Origin: Acidobacteriota bacterium
GTDB lineage: Bacteria; Acidobacteriota; Vicinamibacteria; Fen-336
DNA length: 47,983 bases
NCBI GenBank assembly: GCA_003223555.1
Contig: QHVM01000040.1
Span: 16,422-64,404, forward strand
Reading direction: 5' to 3'
Numbering within the stretch: position 1 is the first letter of the stretch; every line of letters begins with the position of its first letter. The notes beneath the pieces were generated by a model that was not told where the DNA came from, made no database searches, and saw only the letters and a program-made list of their open reading frames with translations. Made by a program: the position numbers and the translations under genes. Below are positions 15,874 to 36,694 of this stretch, in pieces.

Positions 15874-17508
15874 ATGGCCCAGCCCAAGCAGGAGTGGGGC
15901 ACCCGTCTGGGCGTGATCCTGGCGGTGTCCGGCTCCGCGGTGGGCCTGGGGAACTTCCTCCGCTTCCCCGGCAACGCCGCCCAGAACGGCGGGGGCGCGT
16001 TCATGATCCCCTACTTCTGCGCCCTCCTCCTGCTCGGCATCCCCATCGGGTGGGCCGAGTGGACGATCGGCCGGTACGGCGGCCGCAAGGGGTTCCACTC
16101 CGCCCCGGGTGTGATGGGGGTCATCGGGCGAGGGGCCGCCGCCCGATACCTCGGCGTGTTAGGGGTGCTGATCCCGCTCGTCGTCTACTTCTACTACGTG
16201 ATCATCGAGGCCTGGTGCCTCGGCTACACCTACTACTACCTGACCCAGGGGGGGTTGGGCATCGACTCGAGCCAGGCGGTGGCCGACCAGGTGAAGGCCT
16301 CCACCGGCTTCTTCACGAGCTTCACCGGCCAGGCCGCGAACGGCTCCCTCTTCCAGGGGAGGCACGCGGGCGTGTTCGTCTTCTGGCTGGTGACCTTCGC
16401 CCTCAACGTTTACTACGTCTACCGGGGCCTCTCGAAAGGCATCGAGGAGTTCTGCAAGTGGGCCATGCCGGCGATGGCCGTGTGCGGGATCCTGGTCCTC
16501 ATCCGCGTCCTGACCCTGGGGACTCCCGATCCCGGTCATCCCGAGCAGAACGTCGTGAGCGGCCTCGCCTTCATGTGGAACCCCGACTTCGCCAGCCTGG
16601 GCAACTTCAAGACCTGGCTGGCCGCGGCCGGCCAGATCTTCTTCAGCCTGTCGGTGGGCTTCGGCGTGATCATCAACTACGCGTCCTACATGAAGAGGAA
16701 GGACGACGTGGTCCTGTCGGGGCTGACCGCCTCCGCCACCAACGAGTTCTTCGAGGTGGCGCTGGGCGGGATGATCACCCTCACCGCCGCCATCGTCTTC
16801 CTCGGCGAGCCCCTGACCCGGGCCAACACCGGCGGGACCTTCTCCACCGGTTTCTTCGCGGTGCCGGTGGTGTTCGCCCACATGCCGGCCGGGCGCTTCT
16901 TCGGCGCGATCTGGTTCTTCATGCTGTTCCTGGCCGCCATCACCAGCTCGCTGTCGATGCTGCAGCCGGCCAAGGCCTTCTTCGAGGAAGCGCTGGGGAT
17001 CGGGCGCGGCCCCTCCACCGCCCTCCTCACCGTGGTCTGCCTCGCGGGAAACCTCTTCGTGCTCTACTTCAGCCAGGGGCTCGTCGCGCTCGACACCCTG
17101 GACTTCTGGGTGGGCAGCTTCATGATCTTCATCGTGGCCGCGGCCCAGATCATCTACTTCGGCTGGGTGTTCGGGATGGAGCGGGGCATGGCGGAGGCGC
17201 ACGAGGGCGCCCACATGCGCATCCCCCGGGTCTACCGGTTCATCATCAAGTACGTCTCGCCGCTGTACCTCATCGTGGTCTTCGTCGGCTTCTGCCTGCA
17301 GGCCGTGCCCGGCTACGTCCGCACCGTGCTCGGCGACGCGGCGCGGGGGATCCCCCCCGACCACGACGCCCAGCTCGCCTGGCTGGTCATCGTGGCCGTG
17401 ATGGCGGGATTGTTCGCGGTGACCGTCGTCGGCAGCCGCCGGTGGCGGGCCCGCGGACTGGACCTGGACGGCTTACGGGGGCCCGACGACCAGGTCCGGG
17501 CGGCGTAG
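15874..17508 (+). CDS. Sodium-dependent neurotransmitter-symporter family (NSS) transporter
   Basis: 544 residues with the LeuT fold. The first helix carries the NSS hallmark AVSGSAVGLGNFLRFPGNAA (about 18-37), including the unwound substrate and Na+ site, followed by NGGGAFMIPYF. SVGFGVIINYASYMKRKDD (about residues 262-280) is the conserved helix-6/intracellular region. About 11-12 helices are visible. The family imports amino acids with Na+. The small subunit directly downstream marks it as a two-component MetP/MetS-like system, so a hydrophobic amino acid such as methionine or alanine is a plausible substrate. That last point is an inference. Confidence 0.93.
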   Translation: MAQPKQEWGTRLGVILAVSGSAVGLGNFLRFPGNAAQNGGGAFMIPYFCALLLLGIPIGWAEWTIGRYGGRKGFHSAPGVMGVIGRGAAARYLGVLGVLIPLVVYFYYVIIEAWCLGYTYYYLTQGGLGIDSSQAVADQVKASTGFFTSFTGQAANGSLFQGRHAGVFVFWLVTFALNVYYVYRGLSKGIEEFCKWAMPAMAVCGILVLIRVLTLGTPDPGHPEQNVVSGLAFMWNPDFASLGNFKTWLAAAGQIFFSLSVGFGVIINYASYMKRKDDVVLSGLTASATNEFFEVALGGMITLTAAIVFLGEPLTRANTGGTFSTGFFAVPVVFAHMPAGRFFGAIWFFMLFLAAITSSLSMLQPAKAFFEEALGIGRGPSTALLTVVCLAGNLFVLYFSQGLVALDTLDFWVGSFMIFIVAAAQIIYFGWVFGMERGMAEAHEGAHMRIPRVYRFIIKYVSPLYLIVVFVGFCLQAVPGYVRTVLGDAARGIPPDHDAQLAWLVIVAVMAGLFAVTVVGSRRWRARGLDLDGLRGPDDQVRAA

Positions 17509-18185: not shown

Positions 18186-18962
18186 ATGGCGGGCCTGGCG
18201 GGCCGGCGGGCGCTGGTCACGGGAGGCGGGCGCGGCATCGGCCGCGCGGTGGCCCTGGACCTGGCCCGGGCGGGAGCGGCGGTGGCGGTGGCCGCCCGCA
18301 CCCGGGCCGACGTGGAGGCGGTGGCCGCGGAGGCCCGGCGGCTCGGCGCGCCGGCGGCGGCCCTGGTGGCCGACGTGACGCGTCCGGAGTCGGTGCGCGA
18401 GATGTTCGGCGCCGCTCGCGAAGCCCTGGGCCCCATCGACGTCCTGGTGTGCGGGGCGGGTGTCGCGCCCTCGGCCACCGTGGCCCGGACGACGGATGAG
18501 CAGTGGCGGGCCGCCCTCGACACCAACCTCTCCGGCTGCTTCTATTGCCTGCGGGAGGCCCTGGGGGCGATGGCCGGGCAGGGCTGGGGCCGGGTGGTGG
18601 CGGTCGCGTCGATCGCGGGCAAGACCGGCTATCCGTACGTCGGCGCCTACGCCGCCAGCAAGCACGGCGTCCTGGGCCTCGTGAAGTGCGCGGCGCTGGA
18701 GGTGGCCGGGCAGGGCGTGACGGTGAACGCGGTCTGCCCCGGGTACGTCGATACGCCGATGACCGACGTCTCGGTGGCCCGCCTCGCCGAGAAGACGGGC
18801 CACCCGCCAGGCGACGTCCGCCGGAGGCTGGAGGAGATGAGCCCGCAGAAGCGTCTCTTCACCGCCGAGGAGGTCTCGGCCCTCGTCCTCTTCCTGTGCG
18901 GCGAGCAGGCGCGCGGCATCACCGGCCAGGCCCTGAGCCTGGACGGGGGCACGCTGGTCTAG
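18186..18962 (+). CDS. SDR family NAD(P)-dependent dehydrogenase, probably 3-hydroxyacyl-CoA type
   Basis: 258 residues, a classical short-chain dehydrogenase. The cofactor loop is TGGGRGIG (12-19), and the catalytic residues are S142, Y155 and K159 in ASIAGKTGYPYVGAYAASKH. PGYVDTPMTD and ITGQALSLDGG are the expected C-terminal blocks. R38 in AARTR favours NADP(H), though this is not decisive. As first gene of an operon with an enoyl-CoA hydratase and an acyl-CoA dehydrogenase, it most likely oxidises a 3-hydroxyacyl-CoA intermediate. A FabG-like or 3-hydroxybutyrate dehydrogenase role cannot be excluded. AAAGGAT precedes the ATG closely. Confidence 0.9.
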   Translation: MAGLAGRRALVTGGGRGIGRAVALDLARAGAAVAVAARTRADVEAVAAEARRLGAPAAALVADVTRPESVREMFGAAREALGPIDVLVCGAGVAPSATVARTTDEQWRAALDTNLSGCFYCLREALGAMAGQGWGRVVAVASIAGKTGYPYVGAYAASKHGVLGLVKCAALEVAGQGVTVNAVCPGYVDTPMTDVSVARLAEKTGHPPGDVRRRLEEMSPQKRLFTAEEVSALVLFLCGEQARGITGQALSLDGGTLV

Positions 18963-19106: not shown

Positions 19107-19499
19107 ATGACGCTCGTCGCGGTGAACCCGGAGTCGCTGGCCAAGCCCCGCGGCTACAGCCACGGGATGAAGGGGCAGGGCGAGGTGCTCTTCGTGGCCG
19201 GCCAGGTCGGCTGGGACCGCGGCGCGGTGCTGGTCTCGGAAGACCTGGTCGCGCAGTTCGCCCAGGCTCTCGACAACGTCCTCGACGTCGTGTGGGCGGC
19301 CGGAGGCTCGCCGGAGAACGTGGCCCGCCTGGTCCTCTACGTGACCGACAAGCGGGAGTACCGCGAGCGGGCCAAGGACATCGGCGCCGAGTACCGCCGG
19401 CGGATGGGCAAGCACTATCCGGCCATGGCCCTCGTGGAGGTGCGCTCGCTCCTGGAGGACGGGGCCAAGGTGGAGATCGAAGCGGTGGCGCTGCTGTGA
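19107..19499 (+). CDS. RidA family enamine/imine deaminase
   Basis: 130 residues of the RidA/YjgF/UK114 fold. Motifs are YSHGMKGQGEVLFVAGQVGW near the N-terminus, then ALDNVLDVVWAAGGSPENVA, RLVLYVTDKREY and YPAMALVEVRSLLEDGAKVE. In classical RidA the C-terminal Arg of the ...T-R/VEV... segment (here VEVRSLL) and a nearby Glu act on the substrate; R in VEVRSLL is present. The family hydrolyses reactive enamines and imines to ketone plus ammonia. Placement in an aromatic/acyl-CoA operon suggests a pathway enzyme that releases an amino group. The ATG lacks a clear Shine-Dalgarno because the upstream bases belong to the CTCTGCG repeat. Confidence 0.88.
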   Translation: MTLVAVNPESLAKPRGYSHGMKGQGEVLFVAGQVGWDRGAVLVSEDLVAQFAQALDNVLDVVWAAGGSPENVARLVLYVTDKREYRERAKDIGAEYRRRMGKHYPAMALVEVRSLLEDGAKVEIEAVALL

Positions 19500-19972
19500 G
19501 CCGTCGGGCCAGCCGGCCACGGCGGACACCTGCTCCGGCCGGCGGCGCGCTCGCGACGGCGGTCTGGGTGCGGCTGCTGAAGGCCCACGGCCTGGTGCTG
19601 AGGCAGGTGCGACGGCGCGTGCCCGAGGGGCTGACTCTTCCCCAGTTCGACGTCCTCATCCAGCTCCATCGGCGCGAAGAGGGCATGACGCCGGGCGAGC
19701 TGACCCGCGCCCTGCTCGTCACGGCGGGGAACGTCACCGGGATCGTGGGCCGGCTGGTGGCCATGGACCTGGCCGAGCGCCGTCCGGTGCCCGAGGACCG
19801 CCGCGCCGTCCGGGTGCGCCTGACGCCGCGCGGCCGCCGGCTCATGCGCCGCGCCATCCCGCGCCACCGGCGCGACCTCGACGCGCTCCTCTCCGGCGTC
19901 GTTCCCGCCGACCTGGCCCGACTGCGCGACCTGCTGGGCACGCTCGGCCGCGCCCTGGAGTCCCGGCCATGA
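19496..19972 (+). CDS. MarR family transcriptional regulator
   Basis: 158 residues starting at the GTG that overlaps the ridA stop (GTGA). The winged helix-turn-helix is clear: LTLPQFDVLIQLHRREEGMT, then PGELTRALLVTAGNVTGIVG (recognition helix) and the wing RRPVPEDRRAVRVRLTPRG. MarR proteins in aromatic-acid operons usually repress until an aryl-CoA binds. This one sits inside the operon it most likely controls, so its target is probably the AT-rich promoter before the SDR gene. Its stop overlaps the next start (ATGA). Confidence 0.9.
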   Translation: MSRRASRPRRTPAPAGGALATAVWVRLLKAHGLVLRQVRRRVPEGLTLPQFDVLIQLHRREEGMTPGELTRALLVTAGNVTGIVGRLVAMDLAERRPVPEDRRAVRVRLTPRGRRLMRRAIPRHRRDLDALLSGVVPADLARLRDLLGTLGRALESRP

Positions 19973-20769
19973 GCCCTCGCTCCTTCCGCTACGAGGAAGA
20001 CGGCCCGGTGGCGAGGATCACCCTCGACCGGCCCGAGGTCCTCAACGCCCTCACCTTCGAGGTGTACCGGGAGCTGACCGACACCTTCCGCGCCCTGGCC
20101 GGCCGGAAGCCGGTGCGGGTCGCGGTCATCACGGGCCGCGGCCGGGCGTTTTGCACCGGCGGGGACGTCAAGGAGATCATCGGCGAGCTGCTGAAGTACG
20201 ACCGCCTGCGGCTCGAGGCCTTCACGCGCCTCACTTGCGACCTCATCCGGGCCATGCGCGGCCTGCCCCAGCCGATCGTCGCGTCGCTGAACGGGCCGGC
20301 GGCGGGGGCGGGCGCCGCGATCGCCCTCGCCGCCGACTTCCGCGTCGCCGCCGACACCGCCCGCATCGCTTTCCTCTTCGTGAAGGTGGGCCTCTCCGGC
20401 GCGGACATGGGCGCGGCCCACCTCCTCCCGCGGCTGGTGGGCCTGGGGCGGGCGACCGAGCTGCTCATGACCGGCGAGTTCGTCGAGGCGGCCGAGGCGC
20501 TGCGCATCGGGCTCTACCATCGCGTGGCGCCTCCCGACCGGCTGGAGGCGGAGACGGCCGAGCTGGCGGGCCGCCTGGCCCGCGGGCCGGCGGCCGGCCT
20601 GGCCGCCACCAAGGACGCCCTCGACCGCGAGGTGCCCATGAGCCTCGAGACCGCCCTCGACCACGAGGCGGCGGTGCAGGCGGCGCTCATGGAGGGGCCC
20701 GACTTCCGGGAGGGCTTCGCCGCCTTCATGGCCCGGCGCCCGCCCCGCTTCGACGGCGCGCCGGAATGA
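19969..20769 (+). CDS. Enoyl-CoA hydratase/isomerase family protein
   Basis: 266 residues of the crotonase fold. VARITLDRPEVLNALTFEVY is the N-terminal block. The two oxyanion-hole regions are GRGRAFCTGGDVKEI and SLNGPAAGAGAAIALAADFR. LPRLVGLGRATELLMTGEFV follows. A Glu is found in the region where hydratases have their first catalytic Glu, but assignment without alignment is uncertain. The family hydrates or isomerises 2-enoyl-CoA, and in this operon could act on a ring-derived acyl-CoA. It overlaps the marR stop by four bases and is followed by a 46-base gap. Confidence 0.9.
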   Translation: MSPRSFRYEEDGPVARITLDRPEVLNALTFEVYRELTDTFRALAGRKPVRVAVITGRGRAFCTGGDVKEIIGELLKYDRLRLEAFTRLTCDLIRAMRGLPQPIVASLNGPAAGAGAAIALAADFRVAADTARIAFLFVKVGLSGADMGAAHLLPRLVGLGRATELLMTGEFVEAAEALRIGLYHRVAPPDRLEAETAELAGRLARGPAAGLAATKDALDREVPMSLETALDHEAAVQAALMEGPDFREGFAAFMARRPPRFDGAPE

Positions 20770-20815: not shown

Positions 20816-21946
20816 ATGACAAAGAGCGCGTTCCTCGAAGAGCGCCACCTCAAGCTGGCCGAGCGCGTGCGCGCCTTCGGCGACAAGCGCCTGCGGGCGG
20901 CGCTCCGGGACGAGGCCGACCCCGCCGGCCGCACGCGCGAGCTCGTCCTCCAGCTCGCCGAGGAGAACCTCCTCGTCGTGGCGGTGGCCCCTCCCTGGGG
21001 CGCCATGGACCTTCGCTCGGTGGTCGTGGTCCGCGAGACGCTGGCCTACTTCTCCTCGCTCGCCGATACCGCTTTCGCCATGCAGGGCCTGGGCTCGTAC
21101 GCGCTCGGCCTCGTCGGCACCGACGTGCAGAAGAAGCGCTGGCTGCCGGCGGTGGCCCGGGGCGAGGTGCTGGCCGCCTTCGCCGTGACCGAGCCCGAGG
21201 CCGGCTCCGACCTGGCCGCCGTCCGCACGCGCGCCCGCCCCGACGGCCTCGTCTGGCGGCTGCGCGGCGTGAAGACCCTGATCTCCAATGCCGGCATCGC
21301 CGGGCTCTATACCGTGCTTGCCCGCAGCGCCGACGGCGACGACCATCACGGCTTGTCACTGTTCCTGGTCGACGCCGAAGCCCCTGGCCTGGTCGTCAAG
21401 CCGCTGGAGGCGATCGCCCCCCACCCGCTCGGCGAGGTCCGCTTCGAGGCCACGCCGGCGGTGCTCCTCGGCGCGGAGGGCAAGGGCTTCGGGCTCGCCC
21501 TGGCCACCCTCGACGCGTTCCGGCCCAGCGTGGGGGCGGCGGCCTGCGGCTTCGCCGCCCGCGCATTCGACGAGGCGCTGCGGTGGGCCCAGGCGCGGCG
21601 CCAGTTCGGCCACCGGCTGGCCGAGTTCCAGGCCGTGCAGATGGCGCTGGCCGAGATGTACGTGGACCTCGAGGCGGCCCGTCTGCTCGTGCATCGGGCG
21701 GCATGGCTCAGGGACAACGGCGCCGAGCGCATCACGCGGGAAGGCGCCATGGCCAAGCTGGCCGCCACCGAGATGGCCCAGCGGGTCGTGGACCGCTCGG
21801 TGCAGATCCACGGCGGGCAGGGCGTCATGCGGGGGGCCACCGTGGAGCGGCTCTACCGGGAAGTCCGCTCGCTGCGCATCTACGAAGGCACCAGCGAGAT
21901 CCAGAAGCTGGTGATCGCCCGGGACATCCTGAAGGACACTCGATGA
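20816..21946 (+). CDS. Acyl-CoA dehydrogenase
   Basis: 376 residues, normal for the family. FAVTEPEAGSDLAAVRT is the FAD-binding segment, GFGLALATLDAFRPSVGAAA is the mid-domain helix, and WAQARRQFGHRLAEFQAVQ and QIHGGQGVMRG are the usual C-terminal motifs. The catalytic base is in IYEGTSEIQ near the C-terminus. The enzyme introduces a 2,3 double bond in an acyl-CoA and passes electrons to ETF. Neighbouring genes point to an alicyclic or aromatic-derived acyl-CoA more than to fatty acids. No Shine-Dalgarno is seen before the ATG, and its stop overlaps the following start (ATGA). Confidence 0.93.
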   Translation: MTKSAFLEERHLKLAERVRAFGDKRLRAALRDEADPAGRTRELVLQLAEENLLVVAVAPPWGAMDLRSVVVVRETLAYFSSLADTAFAMQGLGSYALGLVGTDVQKKRWLPAVARGEVLAAFAVTEPEAGSDLAAVRTRARPDGLVWRLRGVKTLISNAGIAGLYTVLARSADGDDHHGLSLFLVDAEAPGLVVKPLEAIAPHPLGEVRFEATPAVLLGAEGKGFGLALATLDAFRPSVGAAACGFAARAFDEALRWAQARRQFGHRLAEFQAVQMALAEMYVDLEAARLLVHRAAWLRDNGAERITREGAMAKLAATEMAQRVVDRSVQIHGGQGVMRGATVERLYREVRSLRIYEGTSEIQKLVIARDILKDTR

Positions 21947-22656
21947 GATCCGGAGACGTCCTCCGCGAGGAGGAGATGAGCCCCGAGTACCGCCGCATGG
22001 TGGTGCAGATGATGGAGAGCCAGGCCTACCGCGAGCTGGCCGCCGCCCACATGTTCGGCTATGGCCTGCGCTTCGTGCCCGACAAGTGGATGAAGTTCAT
22101 GGTCTGGCACATCCAGGAGGAGACCGAGCACTACCAGGCGGTATCGAAGATGTACCGCGACTTCACGAAGGAGGAGGTCGAGCCGCGGGTCCGCGAGCGG
22201 CTGGCCGACAAACCCGTGCCCTTCGCGGAGAGCTGGTTCGAGCTGGCCATGGCCCAGTTCCTCTACGACCGGGGCGGCTTCTGGCAGCTCAAGGAATACG
22301 AGGAGTGCTCGTTCGTGCCCTACCGGGGCGTGATCCAGAAGATCGTGAAGGAGGAAGCGGGCCACCAGGACCTGGGTGAGAAGATCGTGGTGGAGCTGTG
22401 CCGGTCGGGCGATCACGAGGACGTGAAGCAGGCCCTGTTCCAGAAATGGCTACGCATCGGTCTGCTGTCCTTCGGGCGCCCCGGGACGCCCGGCAACCGT
22501 TTCGCCATCGAGCACGGCCTGAAGAAGCGCGACTCCGGGGAGTGCATGAAGGACTTCATCGAGGACATCCGGCCGTCGGTCCGTGACGCGGGCCTGCGTT
22601 TTCCCCGACCGGCATCGTTGAAGATGGAACTACCGGACGACATCGACTGGAGCTGA
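21943..22656 (+). CDS. PaaA-like ferritin-fold diiron protein (phenylacetyl-CoA epoxidase family)
   Basis: 237 residues. Two ExxH motifs of a diiron four-helix bundle are visible: E60-T-E-H63 in QEETEHYQ and E138-A-G-H141 in KEEAGHQD. E31 in RELAAAHMFG and a Glu in LKEYEE (about 118-121) are suitable extra ligands. This is the arrangement of the PaaA/PaaC group that epoxidises the ring of aryl-CoA esters. No PaaB/C/E partners are present beside it, so the redox partner and substrate are unknown. The start overlaps the acyl-CoA dehydrogenase stop (ATGA). Confidence 0.8.
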   Translation: MRSGDVLREEEMSPEYRRMVVQMMESQAYRELAAAHMFGYGLRFVPDKWMKFMVWHIQEETEHYQAVSKMYRDFTKEEVEPRVRERLADKPVPFAESWFELAMAQFLYDRGGFWQLKEYEECSFVPYRGVIQKIVKEEAGHQDLGEKIVVELCRSGDHEDVKQALFQKWLRIGLLSFGRPGTPGNRFAIEHGLKKRDSGECMKDFIEDIRPSVRDAGLRFPRPASLKMELPDDIDWS

Positions 22657-22657
22657 C

Positions 22658-23134
22658 ATGGGACGAATCGTGGAGCTGTGCGGTGAGGTCGCGTCGGAGT
22701 CGGAAGAAGGGCCGGAAGGGCTCGTGCTTCCCCCCGAGGCGTGGGAGCGACTGCGGGCGGAGTGGGAGGAGCAGGACATCGAGGACGCCCTCGCCCTCGT
22801 CCAGGACAGCCTCATGCAATCGGAGCTGGTGGAGGCGGCCGACAGCCTCAGTGCGCGGCTCCTCGACCTGCTGGGGACCTTCGGCGAGACGCCGGCGTTC
22901 CGCCGGGCCGAGGCCGGCCAGGCGGTCTTGAGCCTGGAGGTGATCGGACAGCTCGCCCGGCGGGTGGCGCGGCTGGAAGAGGTCCTGGAGTCCTACCGCG
23001 AGGGGACACCGCCGGACCGGCGCGGCTTCGAGGCGCTGCGGCGGCGCCTGGCCGACCAGGGGATCGAGGAGGAGATGGAGCAGGGGAGGACCGCGCAGGC
23101 AACCATGCCCGACGACGAAGACGAAGGCGAGTGA
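22658..23134 (+). CDS. Small acidic helical protein, unknown function
   Basis: 158 residues, very rich in Glu and Asp, with a predicted all-helical make-up. Stretches such as QSELVEAADSLSARLLDLLG and VIGQLARRVARLEEVLESYR look amphipathic or coiled-coil. It ends in MPDDEDEGE. It starts one base after the PaaA-like gene stop, and its stop overlaps the next GTG, so it is firmly part of the operon. No family is recognised. It could be an accessory or assembly factor for the diiron protein upstream or the Fe-S flavoenzyme downstream; that is a guess from position. Confidence 0.75.
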   Translation: MGRIVELCGEVASESEEGPEGLVLPPEAWERLRAEWEEQDIEDALALVQDSLMQSELVEAADSLSARLLDLLGTFGETPAFRRAEAGQAVLSLEVIGQLARRVARLEEVLESYREGTPPDRRGFEALRRRLADQGIEEEMEQGRTAQATMPDDEDEGE

Positions 23135-24540
23135 ATCCGCAGGGGGCGCAGCGAAGCCGTTCCCGGTTGTTCCAGCCGTTCCCGATCGGCAAGGGCGGGC
23201 TGGTCCTCCCGAACCGCATCTGGCTGCCGGCGATGGTGACGTGGCGCGGCACCGAGGACGGCTTCGTGACGCCGTCGGTGCGCGAGATCTACCTCCGCTA
23301 CGCGCTCGGCGGGGCGGGCATGATCGTCCTCGAGGCGACCGGCATCCGCGACATCGCCAGCGGCCCCCTGCTCCGGCTGTCCCACGACCGCTTCGTGCCA
23401 GGGCTGAAGGCGCTGCGCGACGAGATGCGTGCCGTCTCCGATTCGGTCGTCATCCCCCAGATCATCGACTTTCTCAAGATCGCCACCCGCAAGCCCACCC
23501 GGGTGTTCATGGAGGACGCGTTCCGGCGCGGGCTGCTCGCGGAGAGCGTCCTCGGCCTGAGCGAGGCCCAGTTCGAGGCGGCCCTGCCCCGCTACCTGCC
23601 GAGCCCGCGCCACCAGCGCGACTTCTTCTACGGTTACCGGCAGACGATCGAGGACCTCTCCCTCGACGAGATCCGCCGGATCCCGGGCTGGTTCGCCTCC
23701 GCGGCCCGCCGGGCCCAGGCCGCCGGCTTCGACGGCGTCGAGCTGCACTTCGCCCACGCGTACACGATGGCCGCGTTCCTTTCCGTGACCAACGCGCGGA
23801 CCGACCGGTACGGGGGGAGCTTCGAGAACCGGATGCGCCTGCCGCTCGAGGTCGTGCGCGCAGTGCGGGAGGAGGTGGGTCGCGACCCCCTCGTCGGCTG
23901 CCGCTACCTCGGCTCGGAGGACATCCTCGGCGCGGACGGCGCCATCCATGGCAACACCCTCGAGGACGCCCAGGCGATCGGCGTCGAGCTGGCCCGCGCC
24001 GGCCTGGATTTCCTCTCCATCTCCCGGGGGGGAAAGTTCGAGGACGCCAAGCAGCCCCCAGTGGGCGAGGCCATGTATCCCTACACGGGCCACAGCGGCC
24101 ACACCTGCATCCCGCGAGGCAAGAGCGATCCCGTCGGCGTCAACGTCCCGTTGGCGGCGGGCATCCGGCAGGCGGTGCGCGCGGCCGGCCTGACGACGCC
24201 GGTCGTCACGTCCGGCAAGATCATTGCCTTCGATCAGGCGGAGTCGATCCTCCAGGAAGGCCGGGCCGACCTCGTCGGGATGGCACGGGCTCTCCTCGCC
24301 GATCCCGACCTGCCCCGCAAGTGGCGGGCCGGGTCCGATGCCGACCTGCGGGCGTGCGTTTTCTGCCCGTTTTGCGAGGAGGAAGACCAGCGCCACCGCG
24401 TGGTGACTTGCACGCTCTGGCCCAAGGGCCCTGACGGCGGTCGCTCCCGGCTCACGCCGGGCGTTTGGCGTCCCGATGCGCCTTGGAACTCCAGGCACGT
24501 CTTCAGCTTCGCCGATGCGACGCGCGTCACTACCGCCTGA
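23131..24540 (+). CDS. NADH:flavin oxidoreductase/old-yellow-enzyme with [4Fe-4S] motif (2,4-dienoyl-CoA reductase-like)
   Basis: 469 residues from the GTG that overlaps the previous stop. The barrel carries the OYE signature GFDGVELHFAHAYTMAAFLS, NARTDRYGGSFENRMRLPLE and, near the end, TSGKIIAFDQAESIL and GRADLVGMARALLADPDLP. A cysteine cluster CVFCPFC followed after 11 residues by another Cys matches the [4Fe-4S] ligands of 2,4-dienoyl-CoA reductase-type enzymes. The second FAD/NAD domain of FadH is absent. The enzyme should use FMN to reduce conjugated C=C bonds of a CoA ester, fitting a ring-reduction or dienoyl step. The last 25 residues have no recognisable motif. Confidence 0.88.
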   Translation: MNPQGAQRSRSRLFQPFPIGKGGLVLPNRIWLPAMVTWRGTEDGFVTPSVREIYLRYALGGAGMIVLEATGIRDIASGPLLRLSHDRFVPGLKALRDEMRAVSDSVVIPQIIDFLKIATRKPTRVFMEDAFRRGLLAESVLGLSEAQFEAALPRYLPSPRHQRDFFYGYRQTIEDLSLDEIRRIPGWFASAARRAQAAGFDGVELHFAHAYTMAAFLSVTNARTDRYGGSFENRMRLPLEVVRAVREEVGRDPLVGCRYLGSEDILGADGAIHGNTLEDAQAIGVELARAGLDFLSISRGGKFEDAKQPPVGEAMYPYTGHSGHTCIPRGKSDPVGVNVPLAAGIRQAVRAAGLTTPVVTSGKIIAFDQAESILQEGRADLVGMARALLADPDLPRKWRAGSDADLRACVFCPFCEEEDQRHRVVTCTLWPKGPDGGRSRLTPGVWRPDAPWNSRHVFSFADATRVTTA

Positions 24541-25418: not shown

Positions 25419-26072
25419 TCACTTCCGGGTGATGATGTAGACGTCCGCCGGCCACGGCCAGCGGCGGCGGACCTCCGTCAGGGCGAGGCGCGGACGCCGT
25501 TCGACGACGCGAACGACCTTCGCGCGAGGCACGAGCAGCCGGTTGACGCCCAGGCACGCGATGGCCCGGCCGCCCCGCTCGGCGAACGCATCGAGGAAGC
25601 CCTCGATCACGCTGGTGCCCTCGGGCCCTCCGTCGGACTGGACGTCGGGGCCGGACAGCAGCGCCGACGGCACGTACGGGACGTTGAAGGTCACGCAATC
25701 GAACTGCCCCTCGCCTTCGACTCCGTCGAAGAACCGCGCCTCCACGACGCGGATCGGCGCGCGGTTCGCCTCGACGTTGGCCCGCGCCTTCCGTACCAGG
25801 TCGGGGCGCACGTCGGTGGCGACGACGTCGCAGCCCGTCCGCCGCCACAGGGCGAGGCCGACCGTGGCGAAGGCGCCCGTGCCCATGTCGAGCAGGCGCC
25901 GGCCGGGGCCGAGCCGGCGCCCCGCCACCGATACGAGCGCCGGTGTGGTCAGGTCGAAGTAGCGCGCGCCGCCCTCGAGGGGAGGAAAGTCGACGCCGAA
26001 CAGCCGCCGCGCGAGGGCCCGGGAACGTGAGACCCGCCCCCCTGCCCGCCGGAGCAGGCCCAGGACGCCCAC
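25419..26072 (-). CDS. SAM-dependent methyltransferase (PrmC/HemK-like)
   Basis: 217 residues from a GTG at 26072. Motif I is LLDMGTGAFATVGLAL (about 60-75), and ATDVRPDLVRKARANVEANR follows as the post-I acidic loop. The substrate motif of the glutamine-N5 group, NPPY, is here NVPYVP in FDCVTFNVPYVPSALL. The change from Pro to Val at the second position makes the target uncertain. It follows the carbamoyltransferase stop by six bases. Together with the deacetylase, this suggests a three-step small-molecule or glycan modification unit. Confidence 0.8.
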   Translation of the reverse strand: MGVLGLLRRAGGRVSRSRALARRLFGVDFPPLEGGARYFDLTTPALVSVAGRRLGPGRRLLDMGTGAFATVGLALWRRTGCDVVATDVRPDLVRKARANVEANRAPIRVVEARFFDGVEGEGQFDCVTFNVPYVPSALLSGPDVQSDGGPEGTSVIEGFLDAFAERGGRAIACLGVNRLLVPRAKVVRVVERRPRLALTEVRRRWPWPADVYIITRK

Positions 26073-26078
26073 CGAGGC

Positions 26079-27857
26079 TCAGGCCGGCTTGTCGAGGATG
26101 AAGCCGCCGATGACGAGGCTGTCCATCCCCGTGCCGTAGAAGCAGCGCACCGCGTCGCGCGGCGTGCAGACGATCGGCTCGTCCTTGACGTTGAACGACG
26201 TGTTGAGCACACCCGGCACGCCGGTGAGGCTGCGGAAGCAGTCGATCAGCTCCCAGTAGAGGGGGTTCGTCTTGCGGCTCACGGTCTGGGGCCGCGTCGT
26301 CTGGTCGGCCGAGTGCATCGCGCTCGGGATGTCGCGGCGCCGCGCCTCGGCCACGTCGAAGGCCATGATCATGAACGGCGATCGGGCCGGCTGCTTCACG
26401 TAGTCGGCGAAGTGCTCTTCCAGGATCGACAGCGCGAAGGGCCGCCAGCTCTCCCGGAACTTGACGCGGTCGTTCACGAGGTCCTTCATCTCCGGCCGTC
26501 GCGGATCGGCCAGGATCGAGCGGCCGCCGAGGGCCCGCGGTCCGCCCTCCATCCGGCCCTGGAACCAGCCGACGATCTTGCCGGCGGCGATCATCCGCGC
26601 CGCTTCGTGACCGACCCGCGGCGAGCGGCGGTAGGCGGCGCGGCTCGACCGGAGCACCGCCTCGATCTCGTCGTCTCCGTAGCTCGGCCCCCAGTAGAGA
26701 TGATCCATCTCGAAGCGCGGGTCGTCGCCCTTTTCGGCCGCCACGACCTGGGCCGCCCCCAGCGAGACGCCGCCGTCGTAGGCCAGCGGCTGGATGAAGA
26801 TCTCCTCGGCGACCCCTCGGCGGTGGATCTCGCCGTTCATCTTGCAGTTCAGCGCCACGCCTCCGGCCAGGCAGAGCCGGCGGCTGCCGGCCAGGCGGGT
26901 GGCCAGGCCGGCCAGGTGGACGCCGGCCTCCTCCAGCCGGTCCTGCACGGCGCGCGCGATCGCGCGGTGGCGGTCGGTCAGGGGCTCGTCCCGGCCGCGC
27001 GGCGGGCCCAGCCGCTCGACGACCGCGTCGGAGAAGAACTTCCCATAGCTGCGGCGGCCGTAGAAGAGGTAGTCGGCGTCGACACGGTACCCGTCTTCGG
27101 TGAGCTGCAGGACGTCGCGGACGAGCGCCTCCGCCTCGGGGTCCCGCTCCCCGAAGGGAGCGAGGCCCATGAGCTTCACCTCGCCCTCGTTGGGGTTCCA
27201 GCCCAGGAACTCCGTGAAGGCCGAGTAGTACCAGCCGAGCGAGTGCGGGATGTTGATCTCCTTCAGGCGCACGATGCGCCGGCCCTCGCCCCGGAAGACC
27301 GTGGTCGCGTTCTCCTCGCCGTGGCCGTCGAAGACGAGGATCGCGCTCTCGTCGAAGCCCGAGCAGTAGTACGCGCTGGCGGCGTGGGCGAGGTGGTGGC
27401 GGATGAATACGATGGGTGGGACGGGGCCGCCCCCGAAGCCGGCGTCGCGCAGGCCGAGGACGATCCCTTCGGTCAGCGTCCGGGGCTGGAAGGCGACCAG
27501 GCTGCGCACGCCGCCGAGGACGGCCGAGCCGAGGGAGGGGCGGCCGGGAGCGCGCAGCCGCGGCCGGGAGCGGCGGCCGGAGAGCCGGTGGCTCACGAAC
27601 GATCGGGCCAGGAAGAGCGGGAAGCGCCACCGGTAGGCGGTGGCGTCCCAGCCGAAGGCGATGAGGTCGACGTCCTTCAGGTCCATCTTCGCCTCGTCGA
27701 GGCAGAAGCGGAGGGCGCGGCTCGGGAAGTAGCCGAGGGCCTGCTTGACGCGGACGAAACGCTCCTCTTCGGCGAAAGCGACGAGCCTCCCGTCCCGGAG
27801 CACGCACGCCGAGGGATGGCCGCCGACGTCGACGGCGATGAGCCCGAGGACGTTCAC
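26079..27857 (-). CDS. Carbamoyltransferase (NodU/CmcH family)
   Basis: 592 residues. The N-terminal Kae1-like domain shows GLIAVDVGGHPSACVLRDGR, FAEEERFVRVKQALGYFP, RHHLAHAASAYYCSGFDESA and LVFDGHGEEN; the His pairs bind the metal and carbamoyl-adenylate. CLAGGVALNCKMNGE and GWFQGRMEGGPRALGGRSIL are the hinge and YrdC-like domain signatures. LNTSFNVKDEPIVCTPRDAV closes the protein. The family transfers a carbamoyl group from carbamoyl phosphate to a hydroxyl of a sugar or antibiotic. It overlaps the deacetylase stop (ATGA) and is the middle gene of the operon. Confidence 0.95.
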   Translation of the reverse strand: MNVLGLIAVDVGGHPSACVLRDGRLVAFAEEERFVRVKQALGYFPSRALRFCLDEAKMDLKDVDLIAFGWDATAYRWRFPLFLARSFVSHRLSGRRSRPRLRAPGRPSLGSAVLGGVRSLVAFQPRTLTEGIVLGLRDAGFGGGPVPPIVFIRHHLAHAASAYYCSGFDESAILVFDGHGEENATTVFRGEGRRIVRLKEINIPHSLGWYYSAFTEFLGWNPNEGEVKLMGLAPFGERDPEAEALVRDVLQLTEDGYRVDADYLFYGRRSYGKFFSDAVVERLGPPRGRDEPLTDRHRAIARAVQDRLEEAGVHLAGLATRLAGSRRLCLAGGVALNCKMNGEIHRRGVAEEIFIQPLAYDGGVSLGAAQVVAAEKGDDPRFEMDHLYWGPSYGDDEIEAVLRSSRAAYRRSPRVGHEAARMIAAGKIVGWFQGRMEGGPRALGGRSILADPRRPEMKDLVNDRVKFRESWRPFALSILEEHFADYVKQPARSPFMIMAFDVAEARRRDIPSAMHSADQTTRPQTVSRKTNPLYWELIDCFRSLTGVPGVLNTSFNVKDEPIVCTPRDAVRCFYGTGMDSLVIGGFILDKPA

Positions 27858-28762
27858 GAGGCGCTCACCGCGGCGGCCAGCTCCCCCGCCGTCACGAACC
27901 GCGCGCCCCAGGACCGCAGCCGCAGCGCGATCGCCTCCACCGCCTCCTCCATCCAGGGTCCCAGCCGCCGGAGGAAGAGCCGCTCGCGCAGCGACAGGCG
28001 GATCCTCGGCCGCGGGCCCAGCTCGTAGGGATGGAAGTAGTACTGAGCGTCGCCCGTGCGCAGCGCGCGGCGCAGGGCGGCCAGGGTCCAGGCGCGGCCG
28101 GCCACGCGGGTCAGGATCCCCGTGGCGGCCGGCAGGCGCAGCACCGGGAAGGTCGGCAGCGGGATCTCGACCATGTCGCCGGACGGATCGGGACGGGAGA
28201 ACGCCTCCGAGAACCGGTAGGGGTTGGCCGCCACGTGCCCGTGGCCGAAGTCCTTGCCGAGGAGAGGGCGGGCCGTGCAGACCGAGGCGTCGTAGCGGAA
28301 GCCCTCGCCGCGCAGGATGGGAATCATCCAGTCGCGGAGCAGCAGGTTGGGCGCGCGGTAGCCGACGACCGGCCGGCCGACGATGGAGGCCAGCAGTCCC
28401 TTGGCTTCCGACAGCTCGCGGCGGAAGCCGTCCGGTCCCAGCAGGTCCACGTCGACGTGGTGGAAGCCGTGGCAGCCGACCTCATGGCCGCGGCCCGCGA
28501 TCTCCCGCACCAGGTCGGGGTAGAAGCGGGCCACCTCGCCGAGGACGAAGAACGAGCCCTTCACGCCCAGACGGTCGAAGAGGCCGAGGATGCGCCGGGT
28601 CGGCTCGGCCAGCTCGCCCGCCGGCCGGTCGGCGCCGTAGTGCTCGCGGAAGAACTGGGCGGTGTCGCGCCAGCGGGAACGCGGCGACCCGGTGGCCCAG
28701 CGGCAGTGGTACCACTCGTCGAGGTCCACCGAGAGGACGACGCGCCTCGGCTCCGGCGGCAT
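27854..28762 (-). CDS. Polysaccharide deacetylase (XrtA/PEP-CTERM-type, DUF3473-like)
   Basis: 302 residues of the NodB fold. SVDLDEWYH near residue 11 gives the catalytic Asp region, GHEVGCHGFHHVDVD (around residue 95) gives the metal-binding HxxxH-like motif, and VVGYRAPNLLLRDWMIPILR follows. YYFHPYELGPRPR (about 243-255) is the C-terminal motif shared with the DUF3473 deacetylases found in exopolysaccharide clusters. It removes N- or O-acetyl groups from a polysaccharide. It is first in the minus-strand operon, with 35 bases to the divergent M1 peptidase. Confidence 0.92.
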   Translation of the reverse strand: MPPEPRRVVLSVDLDEWYHCRWATGSPRSRWRDTAQFFREHYGADRPAGELAEPTRRILGLFDRLGVKGSFFVLGEVARFYPDLVREIAGRGHEVGCHGFHHVDVDLLGPDGFRRELSEAKGLLASIVGRPVVGYRAPNLLLRDWMIPILRGEGFRYDASVCTARPLLGKDFGHGHVAANPYRFSEAFSRPDPSGDMVEIPLPTFPVLRLPAATGILTRVAGRAWTLAALRRALRTGDAQYYFHPYELGPRPRIRLSLRERLFLRRLGPWMEEAVEAIALRLRSWGARFVTAGELAAAVSAS

Positions 28763-31866: not shown

Positions 31867-32355
31867 ATGCCCGTCGACGCCGACGACTTCCGCCGCGCCC
31901 TCGGCCAGTTCGCGGCGGGGGTCACCGTGGTGACGACGCGGGACGGGCAGGGACGGGCGCTGGGGCTGACCGTCACCGCCTTCTGCGCCGTGAGCCTGGA
32001 CCCGCCCCTCGTCCTGGTGTGCGTCGACCACCGGTCGGAGACCCACGTCGGCTTCCGTCATGCGGGCCTGTTCGGGGTCAGCATCCTGGCCGAAGGTCAG
32101 GAGGAGGTCTCGCGGCGCTTCGCCGGCGGCGGGCCGGCCAAGTTCGCCGGCCTGAAGCTCGTCGACGGCACGTGCGGCGTCCCCCTGATCCCCGGCGCCC
32201 TGGCCCAACTGGAGTGCCGGGTGAGCGCGACCCATCAGGCGGGCGACCACACGATCTACGTCGGGGAGGTGATCTGCCTGGCCGTGCGGCCGGGACGGCC
32301 GCTTCTCTACCACGACCGCGACTACCGGCGGCTGGCGGGCGGAAAGAGGGAATGA
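31867..32355 (+). CDS. Flavin reductase family protein (FMN-binding)
   Basis: 162 residues of the HpaC/flavin-reductase fold: DDFRRALGQFAAGVTVVTTR, LGLTVTAFCAVSLDPPLVLV, GLFGVSILAEGQEEVSRRFA, LIPGALAQLECRVSATHQAG and DHTIYVGEVICLAVRPGRPL. These proteins supply reduced flavin to a monooxygenase partner, or carry flavin themselves. The stop overlaps the start of the benzoate-CoA-ligase-like gene (ATGA), so the two are co-translated. That links it to aromatic-acid metabolism. The start ATG lies six bases beyond the membrane-protein stop. Confidence 0.92.
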   Translation: MPVDADDFRRALGQFAAGVTVVTTRDGQGRALGLTVTAFCAVSLDPPLVLVCVDHRSETHVGFRHAGLFGVSILAEGQEEVSRRFAGGGPAKFAGLKLVDGTCGVPLIPGALAQLECRVSATHQAGDHTIYVGEVICLAVRPGRPLLYHDRDYRRLAGGKRE

Positions 32356-33911
32356 CGGGGCCGATGGAGTTCCCCGAGCGGTTCAACATGGCCTGGTACT
32401 TCCTCGACCGCAACGTCGAGGAGGGACGGGGAGACAAGACCTGCCTCTTCTGGCGCGAGGAGGCCTACACCTACCGCGAGGTCCTCTCGCGGGCCAACCG
32501 CTTCGGCAACGCGCTGCGGGCGCTGGGGGTGGACGTCGAGGACCGGGTCCTGCTCGCCCTGCCCGATCGGCCGGAGTTCGCCTTCGCCTGGTTCGCGGCG
32601 GCCAAGGTGGGCGCGGTCATCGCCATGGTGAACCCGACCCTGCCCGCCGACGACCTCGCCTACTACTTCCACTACACCAGGGCCAAGGTGGCGGTCGTCG
32701 ACGAGTCGACCCTCGACCGCCTCGATCCGCTCCGCGACTCCTTCGTCCACCTGCGTCACCTGGTCGTCGTGGGAGACCGGCCCGGCCGGCACGTGTCCTT
32801 CGCCGCGGCGTGCGCGAAGGCGTGGGACCGCCTCGAGAACGCCGACACGCACCGGGACGACCCGGCGATCTGGCTCTTCACCAGCGGCTCGACCGGCCGG
32901 CCCAAGGCCGCCGTCCACCTGCAGCAGGACCTACCTTGGAACACCGAGCGCTACGCGAAGCTCGTGATGGGCATCCGCGAGGACGACGTCACGGTCTCGG
33001 TGCCCAAGCTCTTCTTCGGCTATGCCACCGGCACCAACCTCCTGTTCCCGTTCGCGGTCGGCGGCGCCACGGCCCTGTTCAGCGAGCGGAGCGAGCCGGC
33101 GACGCTCTTCGACGCCATCGAGCGCTACCGGCCCACGATCCTCACCTCGGTGCCCACGATGATCAACGCGATGCTGAATCAGCCAGGGGCGAAGGAGCGC
33201 GACCTCTCTTCGCTGCGGCTCTGCCTCTCGGCCGGGGAGGCCCTGCCGGTGGAACTGTACCGTCGCTGGATGGAGGTCTTCGGGGTCGAGATCCTGGACG
33301 GCATCGGCTCGGCCGAGATGTTCCACATCTACATCTCCAACGTCCCCGGCCAGGTGGTGCCCGGCAGCCTCGGGCGCCTCGTGCCCGGCTACGACGCGCG
33401 CATCGTCGGCCCGGACGGCGGCGACGTGGCGGGCGGCGAGGCGGGGACGTTGTGGGTCAAGGGAGAATCGGCGGCGATCATGTACTGGCAGGCCCACGAG
33501 AAGTCCAAGGAGGTCCTGCGGGGGGACTGGGTCGTCACCGGCGACCACGTGCGCCGTGACGCGGACGGCCTCTTCTGGTATGAAGGCCGCACCGACGACA
33601 TGTTGAAGGTCGCCGGCATCTTCGTGAGCCCGAACGAGGTGGAGAACTGCCTGTTGCAGCACGCCCGGGTGGCGGAATGCGCCGTGATCGGGTATAAGGA
33701 CCGGGACGGACTGATCAAGCCCAAGGCCTATGTGGTGTGCCGGGCGGGGACCGGCGACGAGAGCCTCGCCCGTGAGCTCCAGGATTTCGTGAAAGCCCGG
33801 CTGGCGCCGTTCAAGTACCCCCGTTGGGTGGAGTTCGCCCTCTCCCTGCCCAAGAACGACCGGGGTAAGATCGACCGCAGGAAGCTGGAGGCCGCCGGCC
33901 CCCGAAGCTGA
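32352..33911 (+). CDS. Benzoate-CoA ligase family protein
   Basis: 519 residues of the ANL superfamily. The N-terminus (MEFPERFNMAWYFLDRNVEE) is that of benzoate-CoA ligases. The P-loop is LFTSGSTGRPKAAVH (about residues 175-190), the A5 region LDGIGSAEMFHIYISN, and the hinge/A8 motif WYEGRTDDMLKVAGIFVSPN. The C-terminal adenylation Lys is in KNDRGKIDRRKL. It should activate benzoate or a ring-substituted benzoate using ATP and CoA. Substrate choice cannot be read with confidence. It probably feeds the acyl-CoA operon at 18-24.5 kb. Confidence 0.93.
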   Translation: MTGPMEFPERFNMAWYFLDRNVEEGRGDKTCLFWREEAYTYREVLSRANRFGNALRALGVDVEDRVLLALPDRPEFAFAWFAAAKVGAVIAMVNPTLPADDLAYYFHYTRAKVAVVDESTLDRLDPLRDSFVHLRHLVVVGDRPGRHVSFAAACAKAWDRLENADTHRDDPAIWLFTSGSTGRPKAAVHLQQDLPWNTERYAKLVMGIREDDVTVSVPKLFFGYATGTNLLFPFAVGGATALFSERSEPATLFDAIERYRPTILTSVPTMINAMLNQPGAKERDLSSLRLCLSAGEALPVELYRRWMEVFGVEILDGIGSAEMFHIYISNVPGQVVPGSLGRLVPGYDARIVGPDGGDVAGGEAGTLWVKGESAAIMYWQAHEKSKEVLRGDWVVTGDHVRRDADGLFWYEGRTDDMLKVAGIFVSPNEVENCLLQHARVAECAVIGYKDRDGLIKPKAYVVCRAGTGDESLARELQDFVKARLAPFKYPRWVEFALSLPKNDRGKIDRRKLEAAGPRS

Positions 33912-33963: not shown

Positions 33964-34716
33964 ATGGCCGAGAACTTCGTGATCCCCGACATGACCTGGA
34001 CCGAGGTCGACGACGCGATGAAGGACCGTCCGGTCGCGCTCTTGCCCGTGGGCGCCACCGAGGCCCACGGGCCCCACCTGCCGGTCTCCACCGACACCGT
34101 CATCGCCGTGGAGATGGCCAAGCGGGGCGCGGCCAAGCTCAAGGAGCACGGGGTGCCGGCGCTCGTGCTCCCCCCGGTCACCTTCACCGTGGCCGACTTC
34201 GGAGCCGACTTCGCGGGCACGATCTCCATCCCGCCCGACACCTCGGTGGCGCTGCTGCGCGACGTGTGCGCGGCCACGGTCAAGCGGTTCCGGGCGGTGG
34301 CCTTCGTCAACATCCACCTCGAGCCGCGGCACGTCGAGTGCCTGAAGAAGGTCGTGGAGGACGGGAAGAAGACAGGGATCAGCGTGTGCTACCCGGACAT
34401 CACCAAGAAGCGCTGGGTGGAGACGCTGGGCGAGGCCTTCCAGGAGGGAGACCACGGGGGCGCGTTCGAGACCTCGCTGATGATGGCGGCCGCGCCGGAC
34501 ATGGTCCGGGAGCGCGAACGCATCAGCCTGCCGCCCGTCGACGGCCTGATGCCCGCGCTCAAGAAGGGGGCCCGGTCGTTCGCCGAGGCGGGCGGCGAAG
34601 ACGCGTACTTCGGCGATCCCACCGCGGCCTCGGCCGAGGAGGGCGAGAACCTGTACGAGGCCCTGGCCGAGATCCTGCGCCTGTCGGTCATGGAGCACCT
34701 GGGGAGCAAGGCGTAG
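33964..34716 (+). CDS. Creatininase family amidohydrolase
   Basis: 250 residues. LLPVGATEAHGPHLPVSTDT provides the Glu, His and Asp metal ligands of the creatininase fold. The second His motif, usually NGHGGN, is here NIHLEPRH, which keeps the His but loses the glycines. DHGGAFETSLMM supplies the last Glu. The family hydrolyses cyclic or linear amides (creatinine, formamides, mycofactocin precursor). The NIHLE variant makes the substrate uncertain. It follows the CoA ligase by 52 bases, so co-transcription is plausible. Confidence 0.85.
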   Translation: MAENFVIPDMTWTEVDDAMKDRPVALLPVGATEAHGPHLPVSTDTVIAVEMAKRGAAKLKEHGVPALVLPPVTFTVADFGADFAGTISIPPDTSVALLRDVCAATVKRFRAVAFVNIHLEPRHVECLKKVVEDGKKTGISVCYPDITKKRWVETLGEAFQEGDHGGAFETSLMMAAAPDMVRERERISLPPVDGLMPALKKGARSFAEAGGEDAYFGDPTAASAEEGENLYEALAEILRLSVMEHLGSKA

Positions 34717-35030: not shown

Positions 35031-35097
35031 GACTGGAAGGCCCGTGTCGGTTGTTGATCGAGACCTGCCTTGTCCGCGCTTCGTGATAGACAACTTC

Positions 35098-36253: not shown

Positions 36254-36694
36254 ATGTTCACCACCACCATCCTCGTGCGCTTCGGCGACCTCGACGCGGC
36301 GGGGATCGCCTACTACCCCAACCTCGTCAACTTCCTCCACGAGTCGTTCGAGGACTTCTTCGTCGGCCACGTCGGCAAGCCCTATCCCGACGTGTTCCGC
36401 GAGGGCCTCGGCTTCCCCACCGTCCGGGTCGAGATGGACTTCCTGCGGCCGGTCCATTACGGGGACCACGTCCAGGTCTCGGTGGTCGTGGAGAAGGTCG
36501 GGCGCTCCTCGGTCCAGATCCGCTACGAAGGTCGCGTGCAGGACCGGCCGGTCTTCCGCGCTCGGAACACCGCGGTGGTCGTGGACATGAGGACGTTCCG
36601 GCCGACGGCCGTGCCGGAATGGCTGCGGGAGCGGTTCGAGGCCGCGATGGAAGCCGCGCCTACCAGCGGTGGTAGGCCGGGTGGCCCGGCTTGA
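36254..36694 (+). CDS. Acyl-CoA thioesterase of the 4HBT family
   Basis: 146 residues of the hot-dog fold. VRFGDLDAAGIAYYPNLVNF at the N-terminus contains the catalytic Asp region of 4-hydroxybenzoyl-CoA thioesterases (usually GDTDPAGIVYYP). FPTVRVEMDFLRPVHYGDHV follows. It starts at ATG 36254, straight after the HNH gene stop, and its last 35 bases overlap the convergent PaaI-type gene. It may release CoA from dead-end aryl-CoA esters made by the ligase upstream. Confidence 0.88.
   Translation: MFTTTILVRFGDLDAAGIAYYPNLVNFLHESFEDFFVGHVGKPYPDVFREGLGFPTVRVEMDFLRPVHYGDHVQVSVVVEKVGRSSVQIRYEGRVQDRPVFRARNTAVVVDMRTFRPTAVPEWLRERFEAAMEAAPTSGGRPGGPA

Follow-up and report, generated by a model that had tools for sequence, protein, structure and literature searches.

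Aerobic oxygenation of the ring of aryl-CoA thioesters is known from the PaaABCE and BoxAB systems and from flavin enzymes. An enzyme of the latter kind is 2-aminobenzoyl-CoA monooxygenase/reductase (ACMR), which carries the label 'bifunctional salicylyl-CoA 5-hydroxylase/oxidoreductase' at NCBI (PRK08255; model NF006101). According to two publications on ACMR, ring hydroxylation of the CoA thioester is carried out by its flavin monooxygenase domain, and reduction of the ring is attributed to a fused old yellow enzyme (OYE) domain (PMC3534580, PMC4539516). On plasmid 1 of Paracoccus denitrificans PD1222, the genes are arranged in the order ACMR, short-chain dehydrogenase/reductase (SDR), MarR, enoyl-CoA hydratase, acyl-CoA dehydrogenase, 4HBT thioesterase, RidA and AMP ligase, and the operon of Aminobacter aminovorans is similar. 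In this study, the window, a stretch of 47,983 nucleotides from contig QHVM01000040.1 of an Acidobacteriota bacterium (assembly GCA_003223555.1), was analyzed. It contains an operon with the same partners, in which a diiron protein resembling PaaA is encoded. This PaaA-like protein is probably the oxygenase of an aerobic pathway of the ACMR type for an aryl-CoA, most likely anthraniloyl-CoA, with the diiron protein replacing the flavin half and a separate OYE serving in reduction. The assignment is based on features of the sequence, namely the set of iron ligands, the predicted fold, the failure to find PaaB, PaaC and PaaE, the equivalence of the operons, the co-occurrence with OYE, and the exchange of the oxygenase genes in sister genera.

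Comparison with the Paracoccus operon yielded matches in the window for all seven genes besides ACMR, with 29-49% identity. Ligase, SDR, a hydratase of the PRK08258 type, acyl-CoA dehydrogenase, RidA, 4HBT thioesterase and MarR are therefore shared, as is an OYE module. The differences are confined to two points: the window has a diiron protein in place of the flavin monooxygenase domain, and its OYE is a separate protein with a cysteine-containing tail, being 29-31% identical to the OYE half of ACMR. Judged by gene content, the operon is of the 2-aminobenzoyl-CoA/salicylyl-CoA flavin hydroxylase type minus the hydroxylase, on which the initial annotation of this DNA had not remarked. In a genome of the same order (G014), the gene following the acyl-CoA dehydrogenase gene specifies a fused ACMR of 768 amino acids (1073.8 bits to NF006101, just below the cut-off of 1078), which takes the place of the PaaA-like protein, a 158-amino-acid protein and OYE. 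A flavin monooxygenase half was not found in the genome of the window, the best matches reaching 28.3 bits in the hydroxylase half and 23.9 bits with a free half as query. The OYE of the window scores 128.8 bits against NF006101, with the best stretch at model positions 394-671, and three other OYE models score higher. The ligase is closest to anthranilate-CoA ligase 4wv3 (417.9 bits versus 392.2 bits to the best benzoate-CoA ligase). Because of this match, the presence of RidA and the likeness to the ACMR operon, anthraniloyl-CoA appears to be the likeliest substrate; salicylyl-CoA is also possible. A related arrangement was noted on a plasmid of Sphingomonas daechungensis (L047), comprising SDR, a PRK08258-type hydratase, an unannotated dehydrogenase, RidA and ligase; neither a flavin hydroxylase nor a PaaA-like protein was seen within 16.8 kb.

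The PaaA-like gene is an intact open reading frame, exactly as first annotated. Its ATG overlaps the stop codon of the acyl-CoA dehydrogenase gene, and a single base separates it from the gene for the 158-amino-acid protein, which is followed by the OYE gene. Proteins of 77-88% identity are encoded at the same operon position in seven of the thirteen other genomes of its family (f1, 14 genomes in total), one being truncated where its contig ends; consequently, the reading frame is not due to chance. The closest named relatives, also at 77-88%, are from metagenome-assembled genomes (MAGs) of Acidobacteriota, some labelled Vicinamibacteria. The protein belongs to Pfam family PF05138 (PaaA_PaaC), its 52.5 bits exceeding the gathering cut-off of 28.5, and it reaches 43.1 bits against the PaaA equivalog TIGR02156 (NCBIfam), for which 280 are required. 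With the BoxB model TIGR03225 it was not listed at E 0.001.

Structure prediction, which had been suggested as a check along with phylogeny, could be carried out for the single chain. An AlphaFold2 model from a 19-row alignment had a mean pLDDT of 93.2; an earlier model from seven rows was poor (60.0) and was set aside. The nearest fold is that of PaaA (Z 23.2, root mean square deviation 3.5 over 229 residues, 17% identity), followed by 4mud (Z 22.0), PaaC (about 20) and BoxB (19.5). The entry 4mud, SSO1313 of Sulfolobus, is likewise a short protein of the PaaA family and the best sequence match among solved structures, but only about 17% of its residues are identical. In the tree, the PaaA-like rows form one clade (100/98), apart from PaaA (98/98, four rows) and PaaC (98/94). 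The deeper branching order is uncertain because several branches are long.

The iron ligands of PaaA are listed in a review (PMC4498308) as Glu42, Glu72, His75, Asp126, Glu155 and His158. The aligned residues of the PaaA-like protein are E31, E60, H63, D109, E138 and H141. Both ExxH motifs of the initial annotation (E60-H63 and E138-H141) are accordingly intact, and E31 and D109, which had not been named, complete the set. Loss of ligands in the family, proposed as an argument against an oxygenase, was not seen: each of the six is conserved without exception in an alignment of 19 rows, comprising the window and 18 loci. A second alignment, also used for the tree, consisted of 17 PaaA-like rows plus PaaA (4), PaaC (4) and BoxB (1) sequences. 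Here, the ligands are kept in 17/17 PaaA-like rows; at least four are missing from three of the four PaaC rows, and PaaC of Haloferax retains all six. Two further PF05138 proteins were noted. One of 311 amino acids in a second genome of the window's genus (G001:C12; L025, 3032-3967) is also divergent and has all six ligands; no paa genes were seen among the gene calls of its 5.4 kb contig. The other, a PaaA_PaaC protein on a plasmid of Alteromonas macleodii (L050, 5932-6684), has E instead of D at one ligand; next to it come genes for a radical SAM protein and then a MaoC dehydratase.

A lysine bridge of PaaA has been suggested, in PMC4498308, to act in electron transfer. The residues, E49 and K68, are named in the title of a PDB entry, and E and K are present in all four PaaA rows. 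The corresponding columns of the PaaA-like proteins hold F38 (17/17) and H56, the latter being E in the most distant relative (L045). Since the bridge is lost, the interface of the PaaA-like protein with a reductase must differ from that of PaaA. Both proteins share the fold, the six iron ligands and a CoA-ester context. PaaA has N- and C-terminal extensions, however, which are missing from the 237 residues of the PaaA-like protein, and the latter is encoded in the operon of another pathway, where PaaB, PaaC and PaaE were not found. From the low score with the PaaA model, the separate clade and the lost lysine bridge, it is apparent that the protein is not PaaA. It is a member of a new clade. 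If the proposed function holds, an enzyme of known kind has acquired a new partnership, and the kind of enzyme itself is not novel. Searches of the open-licence literature yielded no publication on a PaaA-like diiron protein of this type.

The protein had been described as an orphan without PaaB, PaaC and PaaE. None of these was found in the genome of the window (G000), a draft of 151 contigs that is 97.98% complete; as a member of a conserved operon, however, the gene is not an orphan. PaaB (PF06243) was found neither here nor in the 13 other genomes of the family. Among 100 genomes sampled from the class, PaaB is present in three (G064, G071, G091), located between PaaA- and PaaC-like genes. 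For PaaE (TIGR02160), none of 21 genomes yielded a score above the cut-off, the best in the own genome being 20.7 bits. The sole other PF05138 match found there is BoxB (722.9 bits, cut-off 499.1), adjoining BoxC (810.1 bits, cut-off 712.3; G000:C100, L026 7046-10158), so that a separate aerobic route for benzoyl-CoA is probable. BoxB, the benzoyl-CoA 2,3-epoxidase, has the same six ligands and a similar fold, but it is twice as long as the PaaA-like protein and is specified by a separate gene beside BoxC. BoxB is not known to need a PaaC-like partner.

These results also bear on the possibility that the protein is a diverged PaaA, with PaaB, PaaC and PaaE missed through divergence or incompleteness of the genome. 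The draft state of the sequence and the adjoining gene for a 158-amino-acid protein of no known family (best Pfam E 0.74, best PDB profile match E 0.21) could be cited in its favor. PaaB, however, was found in 0/14 genomes of the family, paaA-paaB-paaC loci were readily found in three relatives of the class, and the PaaA-like proteins form a clade of their own. The 158-amino-acid gene is present in all ten family genomes bearing the operon, including two without a PaaA-like gene (G003, G005), and no match to it was detected in the loci of Planctomycetota, Rokubacteria and Myxococcota; for these reasons it was rejected as a surrogate of PaaB or PaaC. A diverged PaaA is very improbable and already largely refuted.

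Occurrence of the PaaA-like gene is linked to the adjacent OYE, which had been considered as a partner. In the class sample, window-type OYE genes were counted at E 1.7e-115 or better and flavin hydroxylase halves, fused or free, at E 4e-64 or better. OYE is present in 17 of the 100 genomes, and G088 adds a contig-end piece beside its hydroxylase half. PaaA-like genes were detected in 8/17 genomes with OYE and in 0/83 without; weaker PF05138-type matches, those beside PaaB and the divergent protein of G001:C12, were excluded. The Fisher test gives p = 1.3e-7, a value that is overstated since all eight carriers are of one family. Better evidence is provided by named genomes from other phyla: 11 of 12 with a PaaA-like gene, from Planctomycetota, Rokubacteria and deltaproteobacterial/myxococcal groups, contain the OYE with 52-56% identity. 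Overall, OYE accompanies the PaaA-like protein in 19 of 20 genomes from several phyla and is missing only where the PaaA-like protein is most distant; its proposed partnership is thereby supported.

Hydroxylase halves were found in 20 of the class genomes, in 9/17 with OYE and in 11/83 without. The nine with OYE are exactly those without a PaaA-like gene (G003, G005, G022, G024, G030, G034, G040, G054, G092), and no genome with OYE has neither oxygenase. In G022, G024, G054 and G092, OYE adjoins a free hydroxylase half. In the sister genera G003 and G005, the 158-amino-acid gene starts 14 and 21 bases, respectively, after the stop of the dehydrogenase gene, without a PaaA-like gene in between; the hydroxylase half is located elsewhere, in G003 as part of a fused enzyme truncated at contig ends and in G005 as a free half beside an aryl-CoA ligase. 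In a tree of the OYE proteins, rows with a PaaA-like protein are intermixed with those having a flavin half. Five changes of the PaaA label are needed, of which two are forced by strongly supported branches.

Several observations weigh against the PaaA-like protein as a substitute of the flavin hydroxylase. G001 has the PaaA-like gene and, at a contig end, a piece of about 49 amino acids opening the N-terminus of a flavin hydroxylase, and four Polyangiaceae have a PaaA-like protein, OYE and fused ACMR; strict mutual exclusion, which had been considered, fails in these genomes. In the Polyangiaceae, SDR, a RidA-sized gene (not scored), MarR, hydratase, dehydrogenase and OYE constitute one locus, and the PaaA-like gene lies outside of it in 4/4, beside a creatininase gene and in one case also a ligase gene. 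In two deltaproteobacterial MAGs, the PaaA-like and OYE genes are on different contigs. Another deltaproteobacterial MAG (L045, 10001-10693) contains the most distant PaaA-like protein (38%), which is a sister group, and no such OYE. Within the class, the genomes cannot be counted as independent cases, as all eight carriers are from one family. The OYE has limited identity to that of ACMR and fits other OYE models better, and an electron donor present throughout the loci was not observed. Finally, a relative of kynureninase (129-156 bits, cut-off 246.4) occurs in nine operon-bearing genomes of the family, whole in the relatives and split in the own genome (96.7 and 32.5 bits; L124, G000:C126), and it is uninformative as to anthranilate supply; in the five loci looked at, it is beside genes labelled uvrA- and lpxC-like from sequence reading.

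Since both oxygenases occur in G001, where the flavin hydroxylase is a fragment, and in the Polyangiaceae, the PaaA-like protein need not be a replacement in every host; in some it may act on a different substrate. It could open another way into the same lower pathway, acting on salicylyl-CoA, a substituted anthraniloyl-CoA or benzoyl-CoA, with the flavin hydroxylase, where present, taking anthraniloyl-CoA. The position of the Polyangiaceae gene apart from the SDR-MarR-hydratase-dehydrogenase-OYE locus would agree with this possibility. In family f1, however, the gene is embedded in an operon that, in sister genera, is paired with a hydroxylase half, G003 and G005 possess that half and no PaaA-like protein, and the own genome already has BoxB and BoxC for benzoyl-CoA. 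A second entry is regarded as possible but unlikely.

The OYE of the window has a tail with the pattern C-x5-C-x11-C. Its residues C409, C415 and C427 are invariant in 28 OYE rows (the row of G010 is cut before them), and the tail is absent from three aligned OYE halves of ACMR. FadH-type OYEs carry an Fe-S motif and an FAD/NAD(P)H domain. The tail recalls this motif and may be an Fe-S site; with 469 amino acids, the protein is too short to include the FAD/NAD(P)H domain as well. The OYE might act in electron transfer and not, or not only, as ring reductase, electrons passing from NAD(P)H via FMN and a metal centre in the cysteine tail to the diiron site of a two-component monooxygenase. The presence of OYE in nearly all PaaA-like genomes, the invariant cysteines and the loss of the lysine bridge of PaaA fit this idea. 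On the other hand, the same OYE occurs with flavin hydroxylase halves, which draw electrons from NAD(P)H themselves, and the cluster is uncertain because the fourth cysteine is confined to family f1. Electron transfer as the role of OYE is therefore judged improbable. A combination, in which the diiron protein and the stand-alone OYE took over both reactions of the fused flavin enzyme in several phyla, OYE perhaps feeding electrons via the tail and then reducing the ring, is regarded as rather unlikely.

Other candidates for the electron donor are encoded in some loci. All three Planctomycetota loci contain SDR, hydratase, dehydrogenase, a thioredoxin-like 2Fe-2S ferredoxin, PaaA-like and OYE genes, with MarR in 2/3 and a RidA-like protein, judged by likeness, in 2/3. 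The ferredoxin gene lies between those for the dehydrogenase and the PaaA-like protein (L036 4392-4712, L035 4752-5078, L037 3111-3422). In L036 it scores 87.9 bits with NF041612, under the cut-off of 150; the others were judged by likeness. It is a candidate electron donor in these three. Both Rokubacteria loci comprise PaaA-like, SDR, RidA-like, ligase and OYE genes. The flavin reductase of the window, named as a possible partner in the initial annotation, is indeed conserved in the operon, being present in the loci of six of the eight PaaA-like genomes of the family (G000, G001, G006, G009, G011, G013). It was not found in the fetched stretches of G008, and the locus of G010 is at contig ends. 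The gene is retained, however, in G003 and G005 without a PaaA-like gene; nothing therefore ties it to the PaaA-like protein in particular, and it was rejected as a dedicated partner.

For the preferred assignment as oxygenase of an ACMR-type pathway, we infer enzyme activity, regiochemistry, substrate, order of steps and electron donor as follows. The ligase would form the aryl-CoA. The reduced PaaA-like protein would activate O2 at its diiron centre and transfer one oxygen onto the ring of the aryl-CoA. OYE, containing FMN, would then reduce the ring, by that stage hydroxylated or epoxidised, and yield an enamine-ketone that is no longer aromatic and from which RidA may release ammonia. SDR, acyl-CoA dehydrogenase and enoyl-CoA hydratase would continue in a manner resembling beta-oxidation, and the thioesterase could also take part in the finishing steps. 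Electrons might be supplied by the 2Fe-2S ferredoxin where encoded, by OYE, or by the flavin reductase. The ligands are intact, PaaB, PaaC and PaaE were not found, the gene set includes an aryl-CoA ligase, and in its remaining genes the operon matches that of a flavin aryl-CoA hydroxylase; the earlier suggestion of a differently partnered aryl-CoA oxygenase is therefore well supported. A single-component enzyme, which had also been suggested, is conceivable.

The features of the window are listed in the Table. The operon runs from SDR via RidA, MarR, hydratase, dehydrogenase, PaaA-like and 158-amino-acid protein to OYE, and reductase, ligase, creatininase and thioesterase follow further on. 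The order from hydratase to OYE is kept in the seven family relatives with a PaaA-like gene, as far as the contigs reach. In three of these genomes (G006, G013, G011), the genes for flavin reductase, creatininase and thioesterase are directly beside OYE, the reductase gene of G011 being truncated where the contig ends, and the two halves of the window cluster therefore belong together; a ligase match was not seen in the fetched stretches of these three genomes.

Table. Genes of the operon and iron ligand codons of the PaaA-like protein in the window
Feature	Position	Strand	Evidence
SDR dehydrogenase	18186..18962	+	Pfam; 49% identity to SDR of the Paracoccus operon
RidA-family protein	19107..19499	+	BLAST, 43% identity to annotated RidA of the Paracoccus ACMR operon
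MarR regulator, start uncertain	19568..19972	+	Pfam MarR_2; gene call; 39% identity to MarR of the Paracoccus operon
Enoyl-CoA hydratase, NF006107 (PRK08258) equivalog	19969..20769	+	344.9 bits, cut-off 330
Acyl-CoA dehydrogenase	20816..21946	+	Pfam; 47-50% identity to those of three ACMR operons
PaaA-like diiron protein, putative oxygenase, 237 amino acids	21943..22656	+	PF05138 52.5 bits; six ligands; predicted fold
Iron ligand E31 codon (PaaA E42)	22033..22035	+	Alignments; ligand list in a section of PMC4498308
Iron ligands E60 to H63 codons (PaaA E72, H75)	22120..22131	+	Alignments; same section of PMC4498308
Iron ligand D109 codon (PaaA D126)	22267..22269	+	Alignments; same section of PMC4498308
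Iron ligands E138 to H141 codons (PaaA E155, H158)	22354..22365	+	Alignments; same section of PMC4498308
158-amino-acid protein of no known family	22658..23134	+	No Pfam/NCBIfam match at E 0.001
Stand-alone OYE-type flavoprotein, 469 amino acids, start GTG 23131 or TTG 23167	23131..24540	+	PF00724 138.7 bits
Flavin reductase	31867..32355	+	PF01613; nearest NCBIfam types HsaB, HpaC, StyB, all under cut-off
AMP ligase of the benzoate-CoA ligase family	32364..33911	+	TIGR02262 549.4 bits, cut-off 375.25
Creatininase-family amidohydrolase	33964..34716	+	PF02633
4HBT thioesterase	36254..36694	+	PF13279

Three other regions of the window were noted. Genes for a methyltransferase, a NodU-type carbamoyltransferase and a polysaccharide deacetylase (25419-28762, minus strand) are situated between an outer-membrane-like gene and a gene for an M1 peptidase; as the flanking genes are nearly adjacent in a locus of the same genus (L015, 10098-10166), this region resembles an inserted cassette splitting the cluster. 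A reading frame of 389 amino acids (35083-36252, plus strand) between creatininase and thioesterase genes has no Pfam match and a C-terminus that is HNH-like by eye; in L017 the two genes are adjacent. Just upstream of the operon (15874-17508, plus strand), a transporter of the sodium:neurotransmitter symporter family is encoded, and one is near the operon in L018, too. It may possibly be involved in uptake of aromatic amino acids.

Searches of the open-licence literature yielded nothing on a diiron enzyme for anthraniloyl-CoA, nor on a non-heme diiron enzyme for benzoyl-CoA together with an old yellow enzyme. If the proposed function is true, a further kind of aerobic ring oxygenation of aryl-CoA would exist beside PaaABCE, BoxAB and the flavin enzymes, operating without a PaaC-like scaffold or a PaaE-like reductase. 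A known flavin enzyme would have a non-homologous diiron counterpart in the same operon slot, and the two would allow flavin and diiron chemistry to be compared in a natural setting, probably with one and the same substrate. Automatic labels of the type 'phenylacetic acid catabolic protein' would have to be corrected, and a function would be assigned to a conserved PaaA-like clade in Acidobacteriota, Planctomycetota, Rokubacteria and Myxococcota.

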